Source: Bacteroidia bacterium
GTDB taxonomy: Bacteria; Bacteroidota; Bacteroidia; Flavobacteriales; Flavobacteriaceae
Length of the DNA: 64,000 nucleotides
Direction of reading: 5' to 3'
NCBI GenBank assembly: GCA_030432635.1
Contig: JAUIMB010000009.1
Location: forward strand, 62,001 to 126,000
Part shown: positions 60,122 through 64,000 of the stretch, one piece after another
Layout of the letters: each line of letters starts with the position of its first letter
Numbering within the stretch: the first letter of the stretch is position 1
Made by a program: the position numbers and the translations under genes
The notes under the pieces: model-generated
What the model was told of the DNA's origin: nothing
Database searches by the model: none
What the model saw: the letters and a program-made list of their open reading frames with translations, nothing else

Positions 60122-60146
60122 CTAAAAGTGTACTTTTAACCTATAT

Positions 60147-60365
60147 TCATTTTAATTCCTTCAAATATGGATCGTTCTCTAGACGCTTTTGGGTTTCCTT
60201 TTCCACATAGGATGTTAGATCAGGACATATACCAACCTCAATAAGACACTGATTTTTAGCCTATTTTAAAACTCTAATTTCATCAACTTTCATTCTCCAG
60301 TTTTTGAAAACGACTGGAATTCGAATATTATAAAACCCAATTCCATTTGAATAATTAACTGATTT
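60147..60365 (-). pseudogene. C-terminal protein remnant with internal stop (weakly S41-peptidase-like)
   Basis: KSVNYSNGIGFYNIRIPVVFKNWRMKVDEIRVLK*AKNQCLIEVGICPDLTSYVEKETQKRLENDPYLKELK*. Confidence 0.4.
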
Positions 60366-60447
60366 TTAGTACATTTATCTTAGCTCAACGTATCTTAGCA
60401 TACACAAATGAGCATCTCCCTAATTTTTTTGGCAAGAATACTAGACC

Positions 60448-60590
60448 TTAGAATGTATCGATTGCACATTCTATAAGGATATATTCTTTATGATCGCAAT
60501 ATCTTGATTCTATTTTTGAATCATTAATTGTTGGTCTGATGATATGAAAACATAATCTATTTTCCGTTTATGACCCAAGTTTATAAAGCT
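60448..60590 (-). pseudogene. frameshifted C-terminal protein remnant (weakly endonuclease/exonuclease/phosphatase-like)
   Basis: Frame A ...NLGHKRKIDYVFISSDQ... and frame B ...RPTINDSKIESRYCDHKEYILIECAIDTF* overlap out of frame. Confidence 0.4.
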
Positions 60591-60657
60591 TTAAGTCTCT
60601 ACGGAAGTATTTTCGAATACAGCATAAATCTTTAATAGTCATCATAAATCAGAAGCT

Positions 60658-63600
60658 ATGACCAAGACAGCCAAAATAGTAGGTATCGATTACGATGTAA
60701 ATTCTGTCGACTACGTAGTACCTAATACATTTAGTAGACAATTCAAGCTAAAAACCTATATTGAAATCTCTTCGACACGTTCAGAAAATAAGGTCAATAC
60801 GGTTGAGTTTAAGGATGATGATTTAGTAGTGCTTCAATTCAGTGACAATACTGAATGGATAGGTCATCCTGAAGATGTCCAAGCGATATATGACAAAAAA
60901 ACATTAAACAAACGCTCATTGTCAAATGAGGACTATGTTTTTGACAACCAAATCATTTCCAAAAATGGAAATCGCGGTTTTTTGAAGCGTGCTGTTTTAA
61001 AACTATTTGGAATTTTATCACCTACCGTTAGTGCCAAGTCTGTTTCAGAAATTGCCATGAAGACCTTAGCTGAATCCTATGATAAGCGTATTCAATCGAA
61101 TCCTGGATTATATCAATTTGATGAAAATTTTGTGCGTCAAGAGTGTAGTTCAAACCTAGATAACTCTAGAAGTTATTTGGTATTGTTGCATGGCACCCTT
61201 TCAACAACAACTGACGCATTTTACAAACTTAACGACAACAACAAAACATGGCGAGAAATGGTAGCATTGTATGAAGATCGCGTACTGGCACTCGAGCATC
61301 ATACACTATCTGTAAGCCCTCTAAAAAATGCCCTTGATTTTCTCGAAGCATGCCCTAAAGGCATCACAATAGACATCCTCAGTCACTCTCGTGGTGGCTT
61401 GATTGCCGATATTCTTGCAAAGTGCGACCATCGAAATCCCGTTGTTGGGTTTAATGCTACAGAAATTGGCATCCTAGATTCCAAAGATATTGACTCTGAC
61501 ATTTCAGGAGAATATCTTGACAATCAACACTTAATGAAAGCCATAAATAAAATGGCTCAAGAGAAAAAAATTACGGTCAACAAAGTTATTCGCGTTGCCG
61601 CACCTGCTAGCGGTACAACAATTCTATCCAGGAGAGTTGATCACTTTTTTAACTTACTGCTTAACGCTGTATCGTTTGCTCTCGGCATTTCAAACCCTGT
61701 GTATCATACAGTTAAAGCATTTCTACTTGAAATTGTAAGTTTGAAGGAAAACCCTGAAATCTTACCTGGACTCAATGCCATGATGCCAGAGTCACTTTTT
61801 CAAAAAATGATGAATGCAGCCGAGACCCAAGTCGTAGGTCAATTGTACAATATTTCGGGTGATTCAGATATTGGCGGCATTAATTTTAATTCTCTTAAAG
61901 TCATTTTGGCCAATCTCTTTTATCAAGATGACAATGACCTAGTTGTAGACACAAGGAGAATGGAACATGGTATAAGACGTAAGGATGGTTTTTACAAATA
62001 TTTATCCAAAGGAAGCAATACAAATCACTTCAATTATTTCGACGAAAATGATTCATGTACTGCCATCATGGAGGCCTTAAGACACAATGAGCAACACCAA
62101 TTAAAATTATTTGAAAACCACGTATATACTGAAGGATATCGTGGTGTCCTTTTAGATGTGCTATCCATGGACGGAATCACCCTAAATCCAAAAATAGAAA
62201 CCATTACAAAAGATGTGGTTATACTAATACCAGGAATCATGGGTTCGACCTTGGCATATAAAGAGGAAGATCAATGGGTCGACATGCGTGAATTAAACCA
62301 AGGCGCTATAGTTAACACATTAGCAATAGATGGTGACGACAATGTTACAGCAAGTGGCGTTATAAAAAAATACTACTACAAGCTTGCCGAACATCTATCA
62401 GAAACCTATGATGTTTTGACCTTTCAGTTCGATTGGCGAAAATCAGTTCAAGAGGCTGCTGGTCGCTTAAAAGACACTATTGAAGACATCATAAAATCCA
62501 CTAGTGTTAAAATCCATATAGTTGCACATTCTATGGGAGGCTTGGTCGTACGTCAATGTATGATTGACCATCCAAAAACCTGGAAAAAATTTAAGCAAAA
62601 TGTTCAAAATAGGTTTGTGATGCTAGGCACACCTTGGCTTGGATCTTATCTTATAATGGAAGTTCTTACAGGTCATAGTAAACGTGTAAAGCAATTAGCA
62701 TTTATTGATTTTAAGCACGACCGCAAGGAACTTTTGGAAGTCTTCTGGAAATATCCTGGTGTTTTTGAATTACTACCAATCGAAACTGAGGATACAAACA
62801 GAAAGTTTTGGCAACAAAATTTTTGGACATCTTTAGATAGGAAAGTTGATCTTAAGCACATGCCTGATGTCAAGTCCAATGCACAATCCCTAAAAGACTT
62901 CAAAACTTATCGGGATAGAGTAATTGATTTTCTAGATGCTTTGGAAAATGATGATTTTAATAATATTTATTATATATGTGGCCAAGCCGACAAAACAGTA
63001 TTTGACTATACCTTTAAAAATCGTTTCTTGTCCAGTAAGCAAAAACTGGTCTATAAAGCAACCTCTCATGGTGATGGCAGTGTGACATGGAAAACTGGTA
63101 TCCCAAAACAATTGCTCGACACGCCTCGCCTATATTACACGCACACTTCTCATGGTGATCTAGCAAACGATGAGGATATGTTTCAAGGTATTTCAGATAT
63201 TCTAGAGCACGGGAGAACCAACCTTTTGAGCAACGACCAACCTGCATCAAGAAGCACCGAAGTTATTTCTGAAGTATTTGACTCTCCAGAACCTCTTGGC
63301 AATTCGGAAGCTGTAATCGATGCACTGTTTGGTACAACCGAACAACATCAACCGGAACCAGAACGCTTTAATGTAAGGGTGATTTATGGAGATCTTAAGA
63401 ATTCATCATATCCTGTGATGGTTGGGCATTTTTTTATGGATCTCATCCTTAGTTCAGAAAAAGCATTAGATAACTATCTCGACAATCGTTTATCCCAACG
63501 ATTGAGCATTGGCAACTATCCAGGAAAAATAGGTGAAAGTGAAGTCTTTTTCAACTTAAAAACACAACCCAAAGGTGCCATCGTATGCGGACTTGGAAAT

Positions 63601-64000
63601 TCTGGTGCTTTAACCTCCTATATGCTATCAAAAACCATAAAGCAAGCTGTTTTAAAATATGCGATGTTTATGCGCGACAATTACACATTACCTCAAGCAA
63701 AAAAGTATGCGTCAGGAATCTCTTTTGTTCTAATGGGAATTGGTTATGGTAAAATGCTAGTTGACGACTCTATAAAAGGAATTCTATTGGGTATAGCACT
63801 TGCCAACAAACAGATTAATGACACTGGAGAAGGTCTAAAACCAATCAAGGATATCGAAATTGTCAATTACTACGAAAGTATTGCCAGTGAGGCCTACTTC
63901 AGCCTAACAAGGCACTTTAATTCAGATAATCGAATTGCTTTTAACTACACCAAGGGCATCGCTCGTCGACCAGGAGCAAAGAAGAAAAAAATGTTTAAAG
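60658..64000 (+). CDS. giant multidomain protein, 3' truncated by window: two alpha/beta-hydrolase (second LCAT-like) domains plus CHAT-effector-associated-like module
   Basis: Uninterrupted frame of 1114 codons from ATG 60658, no stop; 'LVLLHGTLSTTTDAF...DILSHSRGGLIAD', 'VVILIPGIMGSTLAY...IHIVAHSMGGLVVRQ', 'VRVIYGDLKNSSYPVMVGHFFMDLIL...KGAIVCGLGNSGALTSYML'. Confidence 0.85.
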   Translation, partial: MTKTAKIVGIDYDVNSVDYVVPNTFSRQFKLKTYIEISSTRSENKVNTVEFKDDDLVVLQFSDNTEWIGHPEDVQAIYDKKTLNKRSLSNEDYVFDNQIISKNGNRGFLKRAVLKLFGILSPTVSAKSVSEIAMKTLAESYDKRIQSNPGLYQFDENFVRQECSSNLDNSRSYLVLLHGTLSTTTDAFYKLNDNNKTWREMVALYEDRVLALEHHTLSVSPLKNALDFLEACPKGITIDILSHSRGGLIADILAKCDHRNPVVGFNATEIGILDSKDIDSDISGEYLDNQHLMKAINKMAQEKKITVNKVIRVAAPASGTTILSRRVDHFFNLLLNAVSFALGISNPVYHTVKAFLLEIVSLKENPEILPGLNAMMPESLFQKMMNAAETQVVGQLYNISGDSDIGGINFNSLKVILANLFYQDDNDLVVDTRRMEHGIRRKDGFYKYLSKGSNTNHFNYFDENDSCTAIMEALRHNEQHQLKLFENHVYTEGYRGVLLDVLSMDGITLNPKIETITKDVVILIPGIMGSTLAYKEEDQWVDMRELNQGAIVNTLAIDGDDNVTASGVIKKYYYKLAEHLSETYDVLTFQFDWRKSVQEAAGRLKDTIEDIIKSTSVKIHIVAHSMGGLVVRQCMIDHPKTWKKFKQNVQNRFVMLGTPWLGSYLIMEVLTGHSKRVKQLAFIDFKHDRKELLEVFWKYPGVFELLPIETEDTNRKFWQQNFWTSLDRKVDLKHMPDVKSNAQSLKDFKTYRDRVIDFLDALENDDFNNIYYICGQADKTVFDYTFKNRFLSSKQKLVYKATSHGDGSVTWKTGIPKQLLDTPRLYYTHTSHGDLANDEDMFQGISDILEHGRTNLLSNDQPASRSTEVISEVFDSPEPLGNSEAVIDALFGTTEQHQPEPERFNVRVIYGDLKNSSYPVMVGHFFMDLILSSEKALDNYLDNRLSQRLSIGNYPGKIGESEVFFNLKTQPKGAIVCGLGNSGALTSYMLSKTIKQAVLKYAMFMRDNYTLPQAKKYASGISFVLMGIGYGKMLVDDSIKGILLGIALANKQINDTGEGLKPIKDIEIVNYYESIASEAYFSLTRHFNSDNRIAFNYTKGIARRPGAKKKKMFK

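Follow-up and report, generated by a model that had tools for sequence, protein, structure and literature searches.

Borvo (BovA) is a single-protein, CHAT-type defence, and SAVED-CHAT and gRAMP-TPR-CHAT are signal- or RNA-activated immune proteases. CRISPR-linked CHAT proteases are also known (PMC11417357). In VMAP systems, caspase genes always occur with a neighbouring alpha/beta-hydrolase gene, and in described conflict systems more generally the caspase-superfamily protease and the alpha/beta-hydrolase are mostly the products of separate neighbouring genes (PMC7159879). In Thoeris, TIR-made signals fire a macro-domain effector in type II and a caspase-like protease in type IV (PMC12847820). 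We analysed a stretch of 64,000 nucleotides, hereafter the window, from the genome of a Bacteroidia bacterium of the family Flavobacteriaceae (assembly GCA_030432635.1, contig JAUIMB010000009.1, forward strand; G000:C2:62001-126000 in our numbering of the host assembly). At its right edge lies a giant gene whose product unites two lipase-like hydrolases, a macro-domain fold and a CHAT protease in a single chain. We read this protein, with moderate confidence, as a cytosolic, signal-triggered self-lysis (abortive-infection) effector. Its parts are of known kinds; in the openly licensed literature searched, we found no description of the fixed architecture, of its breadth across phyla or of the exchangeable wall-enzyme partner.

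The reading frame that starts at position 60658 on the forward strand stays open up to the window edge, a run of 1,114 codons already recognised when the sequence was first read. Extension of the contig showed that the gene continues for 687 codons past the edge to a stop at G000:C2:128063, equivalent to window position 66063, giving an intact product of 1,801 residues. Because the frame is open over all 1,801 codons, a truncated gene or pseudogene was ruled out. Pfam matches and full-length homologues (69–71% identity in other Flavobacteriaceae and ~27–30% in proteobacteria) exclude chance, and the long frame is a genuine gene. The product consists of an N-terminal domain, a DUF7379 hydrolase (hydrolase 1), an LCAT-like hydrolase (hydrolase 2), a macro-domain fold, CHAT and a helical TPR-S-like tail, located as follows.

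60658-64000, +: giant gene, first 1,114 of 1,801 codons, continuing outside the window (contig extension)
60658-61050, +: N-terminal domain, residues 1–131, mostly beta, no family assigned (AlphaFold structure model)
61105-62127, +: hydrolase 1, residues ~150–490, DUF7379, lipase-like alpha/beta-hydrolase fold (Pfam, AlphaFold, Foldseek)
61387-61389, +: Ser244, nucleophile of hydrolase 1 (SHSRGG), conserved in 78/78 sequences
61936-61938, +: Asp427, proposed triad acid of hydrolase 1 (NDLVV), 78/78, role by position
62026-62028, +: His457, proposed triad base of hydrolase 1, 78/78, role by position
62209-63237, +: hydrolase 2, residues ~518–860, LCAT/group XV phospholipase A2-like (Pfam, PDB match)
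62530-62532, +: Ser625, nucleophile of hydrolase 2 (AHSMGG), 77/78, one Cys
63073-63075, +: Asp806, proposed acid of hydrolase 2 (GDGSV), 78/78, role by position
63151-63153, +: His832, proposed base of hydrolase 2 (SHGDL), 78/78, role by position
63364-63957, +: macro-domain fold, residues ~903–1100 (AlphaFold on homologue L050, Foldseek, conservation)
beyond the window edge, +: CHAT, residues 1185–1462 (Pfam E 1.8e-26; AlphaFold on L050)
beyond the window edge, +: helical TPR-S-like tail, residues ~1480–1801 (Pfam, AlphaFold on L050)

Hydrolase 1 matches DUF7379 with a Pfam E of 9e-35, a match shared by all 45 members scanned. Its AlphaFold model, built on a 45-row alignment (predicted local distance difference test score 85.7), was matched by Foldseek to bacterial family I.5 lipases in the PDB (E ~3e-7), and this lipase-like fold together with a Ser-Asp-His triad identifies it as an alpha/beta-hydrolase. 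Hydrolase 2 matches the LCAT family (PF02450) above cut-off (E 1e-15), as well as PDB 4x90, a group XV phospholipase A2 (E 1.2e-5). It resembles these enzymes in sequence and in the arrangement of its Ser-Asp-His triad and differs from them in being bacterial, probably cytosolic and part of a multi-enzyme protein. The initial annotation had proposed both hydrolases, the second as an LCAT-like lipase, from the motifs HGT (178–180), SHSRGG (Ser244), IPGIMGS (524–530), AHSMGG (Ser625), SHGDGSVTW and HTSHGDL; all of these are in place, and the family matches bear the proposal out.

The C-terminal half was modelled by AlphaFold on the homologue L050 rather than on the window's own protein. A module had been expected from about 63360, ahead of a CHAT domain. 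Such a module exists and does precede CHAT; its stretch GDLKNSSYPVMVGHF begins at residue 911 (63388), somewhat later than expected, and its identity in the L050 model is a macro-domain fold. Foldseek aligned this region to macroH2A1.1 and TTHA0132 with template modelling scores of 0.71–0.73 by target, and its loops V-x-V-x-H-G-(D/N)-L, G-L-G and G-x-G-x-G are conserved. By Pfam, the region returned only the macro-like M17 N-domain, weakly and in 8 of 44 members. The fold makes this domain a candidate ligand sensor with putative ligand binding.

The CHAT domain, at first a guess about what lay past the window edge, was located there by the contig extension and Pfam, which removed the doubt. 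It matches PF12770 with an E of 1.8e-26, the profile is found in 44/44 members, and the Cys-His dyad sought downstream is present as H1328 and C1369. In the L050 model this part resembles SAVED-CHAT and gRAMP-TPR-CHAT (Foldseek matches 8tl0 and 8d9h). The tail, helical in the same model, reaches the TPR-S (PF20308) cut-off marginally in the window's own protein (27.7 bits against 27.6), and the profile is matched at E<0.01 in 39/44 members.

As for the family, a single-sequence scan of species genomes gave nothing, and a cross-phylum alignment was used instead. The resulting pattern-based scan of ~85,000 species genomes identified at least 398 relatives, from which the best 80 were taken and 78 loci kept. 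Nearly all of the 78 encode a single open reading frame (ORF) of ~1,750–1,900 residues, and almost all are full length. Full-length relatives with ~27–30% identity are carried by plasmids of Ensifer, Azotobacter and Paracoccus, and in the tree the Bacteroidota stand apart from a mixed group of Pseudomonadota, Thermodesulfobacteriota, Acidobacteriota, Nitrospirota, Myxococcota and Rhodothermota. Closer to home the gene is rare: full-length copies occur in three (G010, G023 and G037) of the 99 genus and family relatives searched, and in the sample of the order 10 of 398 genomes gave any match, two of them at full length; this sample adds one further full-length copy, in G220. Judged from these sequences, the giant protein belongs to a conserved cross-phylum family and is not a one-genome oddity.

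Conservation of the active sites argues more strongly than any other finding that all three enzymes are functional. In addition to the hydrolase residues listed above, the CHAT residues H1328, C1368 and C1369 are each invariant in the 78 aligned sequences, and the patterns used in the homologue scan contained none of these residues. The triad acids and bases, as well as Cys1369 as nucleophile, were assigned by position and family knowledge. Throughout the 78 homologues, which span several phyla, all three catalytic centres persist in a fixed architecture and so are selected together.

The giant protein shares with SAVED-CHAT and with TPR-CHAT (Craspase/Csx29) a CHAT protease joined to a controlling module, helical/TPR in Craspase; unlike in those proteins, two lipases and a macro-like domain precede its CHAT. 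We found no SAVED domain in it and noticed no CRISPR gene in its vicinity. With the VMAP/MoxR-vWA ternary conflict systems it has in common a caspase-superfamily protease and an alpha/beta-hydrolase. In VMAP systems these are separate neighbouring genes accompanied by vWA and MoxR, whereas here they form one polypeptide with no constant MoxR or vWA partner, and the neighbours of the window's gene do not combine vWA, MoxR and VMAP in one locus, nor do the neighbour clusters show a constant partner of that kind. The macro domain, the caspase-like protease and the TIR genes that adjoin some family members recall Thoeris. The giant family differs in having two lipases and CHAT in one chain, and TIR is not a constant partner: none lies beside the window's own gene, and only a few relatives have one. 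Of 44 family members, 10 match the BovA profile of PADLOC, which also shows a SAVED_CHAT resemblance in some relatives, and the lipases and macro-like domain are additional to Borvo; for the window's own protein, PADLOC returned no family of known antiphage system.

Directly downstream of the giant gene, after a gap of 4 bp, lies the gene of a 405-residue protein with a PG_binding_1 domain, whose homologue occupies the same position in ten further genomes. An H...SAGC motif in its C-terminal part recalls L,D-transpeptidases and may hint at a similar enzyme, and a comparison of this protein with phage records gave no match. Other relatives carry different partners: an M15 peptidase, an N-acetylmuramoyl-L-alanine amidase, a muramidase (upstream), a peptidoglycan-binding/GH19 protein, a peptidoglycan-binding/M15-like protein and, in Dokdonia, a DNA/RNA non-specific endonuclease. 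Matches of peptidoglycan type were found for 22 of 1,315 flank ORFs (seven of the 22 being the query proteins themselves), all on the strand of the giant gene and at most 3.3 kb away; 19 of them lie within 150 bp of it or overlap it. These partners represent several unrelated families and require several separate origins on the tree, a recurrence which suggests a general self-lysis logic.

Signalling and protease genes also adjoin family members. A Peptidase_C14 caspase gene lies just upstream of the giant gene in nine proteobacterial loci and a clostripain gene in two (L107 and L108). The neighbours of further members include TIR, nSTAND1 and TPR-S proteins, with TIR or STAND at L040, L044, L092, L107, L122 and L127; in Ensifer, an nSTAND1 protein lies upstream. 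TIR proteins, one of them TIR-nSTAND1-WD40, flank one partial relative, an AAA ATPase follows another, and restriction genes adjoin the Azotobacter and Gelidibacter copies. Taken together, the neighbours suggest a killing module, and the context in relatives fits the suicide or defence factor that the initial annotation had envisaged.

The giant gene and its partner lie between a gene for a 176-residue lipoprotein-like protein and tRNA-Pro/tRNA-Ser. The neighbours comprise the PG_binding gene, the tRNAs, an HD-domain gene and a trxB-like gene, the last two named from reading the sequence. Comparison of relatives delimited the insertion slot:

window 60122-60657; L002 10121-17421, up to tRNA-Pro/Ser: variable insertion slot of the genus (relatives compared)

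In the relative G006, the flanks of this slot are ~60 bp (63 bp) apart, whereas in G004, G007, G008 and G010 different genes spanning 2.7 to 9.6 kb lie between them; the tRNA-side location is a variable site. A shift in guanine-cytosine content was considered as evidence of an island and was not clear, the empty or different slot in relatives being better evidence.

The self-lysis model builds on what the analysis showed: domain order and folds, invariance at the three active sites, the operon partners and a variable site beside tRNA genes. In this model, for which we infer ligand, order of activation, cleavage targets, lipid substrate, phage trigger and antiphage activity, both lipases and the CHAT protease would be kept inactive in the resting cell. 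Upon a danger signal, a nucleotide-type ligand in the macro-like domain, a partner on the helical tail, or both would cause CHAT to fire. CHAT would then cut the giant protein itself, its partners (the adjacent caspase or clostripain where present, the peptidoglycan enzyme or the nuclease), or both. The freed lipases would attack the membrane from inside and the partner the wall (or DNA), and the infected or doomed cell would lyse before phage could spread. The labels "membrane-attacking" and "self-activating" given in the initial annotation correspond to putative steps of this model. That annotation was borne out in part, with the macro fold, the TPR-S-like tail, the cross-phylum family and the partner genes as additions. 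Because protease and two lipases share one chain with every active site kept, the idea that the protease unleashes the lipases is directly testable with three point mutants.

Several observations weigh against this model. Neither a TIR, caspase nor STAND gene is adjacent to the giant gene in the window's own genome, many members lack a recognisable partner in the nearest 200 bp, and the other cargo of the slot in relatives is not obviously defensive. The N-domain of leucine aminopeptidase has the same fold as the macro region and also matches it, so that the fold by itself is no proof of ligand binding, and the Asp of the GDL motif in this region varies among members. Finally, since the homologue scan was pattern-based and its best 80 matches were retained, it favours well-conserved members.

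A broader proposal, which we regard as rather unlikely, is that the family constitutes a previously undescribed cross-phylum cell-lysis machine, in which a signal-sensing three-enzyme executioner (lipase, lipase, macro-like sensor, CHAT protease) and an exchangeable peptidoglycan enzyme or nuclease would dissolve the cell from within, coupled in some lineages to the release of contractile injection particles by lysis. In Streptomyces and Anabaena, contractile injection systems (CIS) have a link with cell death (PMC10020575, PMC8894136), and one known CIS toxin is an alpha/beta-hydrolase (PMC11297309). Of 50 giant-bearing genomes, 36 contain a tube gene of CIS or phage type (T4 gp19-type). Within Flavobacteriaceae, 22 of 23 members have it, compared with 24 of 151 genomes in a family-wide sample (Fisher p ~4e-14 by genome and 3e-8 by genus); size and kinship confound this comparison, since giant-bearing genomes are often large and cannot count as independent samples. 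Lone sheath or tube genes stand beside the giant gene in Subsaximicrobium (L013) and Arcticiflavibacter (L014), tail genes of sheath or tube type lie within 10 kb of it in the proteobacterial loci L101 and L118, and a complete CIS is found ~17 kb away in Gelidibacter. These observations also raise a serious rival to the self-lysis model, namely that the giant protein is itself tied to CIS, either as cargo fired into other cells or as a lysis tool that frees cytoplasmic particles. We consider this link unlikely as the main explanation of the giant protein; it also forms part of the cell-lysis-machine proposal. The tube gene is found in only some proteobacterial members and also in 9 of 23 giant-negative genomes of the window's own genus, and linkage was seen in only a few relatives. 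CIS cargo was set aside as main explanation because the window's own genome has neither tube nor sheath gene. The co-occurrence gives a starting point for testing how producer cells open to let the particles out.

It is likewise doubtful that a separate sensor ATPase, encoded nearby or elsewhere, recruits the giant protein to a STAND/MoxR-type conflict system, where it would form the effector or adaptor arm. The Ensifer nSTAND1 protein, the TIR-nSTAND1-WD40 neighbour and the AAA ATPase beside partial relatives, and the AAA ATPase and caspase genes near the Gelidibacter copy would fit such an arrangement; the family, however, has no constant ATPase partner, and none lies beside the window's copy. 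A secreted or injected antibacterial toxin directed at competitors, with the peptidoglycan enzyme aiding wall crossing, is improbable. Type VI effectors usually comprise a mixture of lipases and wall enzymes, and the giant protein shows a weak match to the Tle3 profile. Against this, no obvious transmembrane segment was seen in the protein, CHAT and TPR-S are typical of intracellular signalling, and a PAAR query of the flanks was empty, Hcp, VgrG and immunity genes not having been searched systematically. Equally hard to accept is a non-lethal lipid-remodelling or stress-response enzyme under proteolytic control, which would suit copies such as those of Leeuwenhoekiella that have no same-strand partner within 200 bp and conflicts with the patchy distribution, the plasmid and variable-slot locations and the weapon-type neighbours.

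Some loci show additional features. In Subsaximicrobium wynnwilliamsii (L013 5565-7152, -), the lone contractile sheath gene is divided, at a short direct repeat, into two ORFs that overlap; it is probably broken or an assembly slip. In Arcticiflavibacter luteus (L014 13110-15175, +), a metallophosphoesterase gene and the lone T4 gp19-type tube gene lie directly downstream of the giant gene, and no full injection-system cluster surrounds them. In Gelidibacter salicanalis (L012/L023), the ~17 kb after the giant gene contain a caspase-LRR gene, an AAA ATPase gene, a caspase gene that includes a GDSL-like region and then the complete CIS cluster. Upstream are a gene of MmeI/Eco57I type and one for a reverse transcriptase.

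Five Flavobacteriaceae carry a two-gene companion next to the giant gene, encoding proteins of 140–144 and 582–583 residues, the larger with a signal-like start:

L048 13121-15303, -: two-gene companion, upstream also in L050, L052 and L055, downstream in L067

The small protein has no Pfam match, and the companion may be an adaptor. An effector-associated-domain reading of the 140-residue protein was dropped; Pfam gave no hit for one member.

Among the longer members, L058 (9968-16543, 2,191 residues) and L092 (9896-16357, 2,153 residues) have extra C-terminal sequence. Two shorter plasmid relatives, L046 (9737-12823) and L047 (9878-12400), annotated as CHAT and trypsin-like, share the LCAT-like part, which suggests that this lipase has been swapped between protease types.

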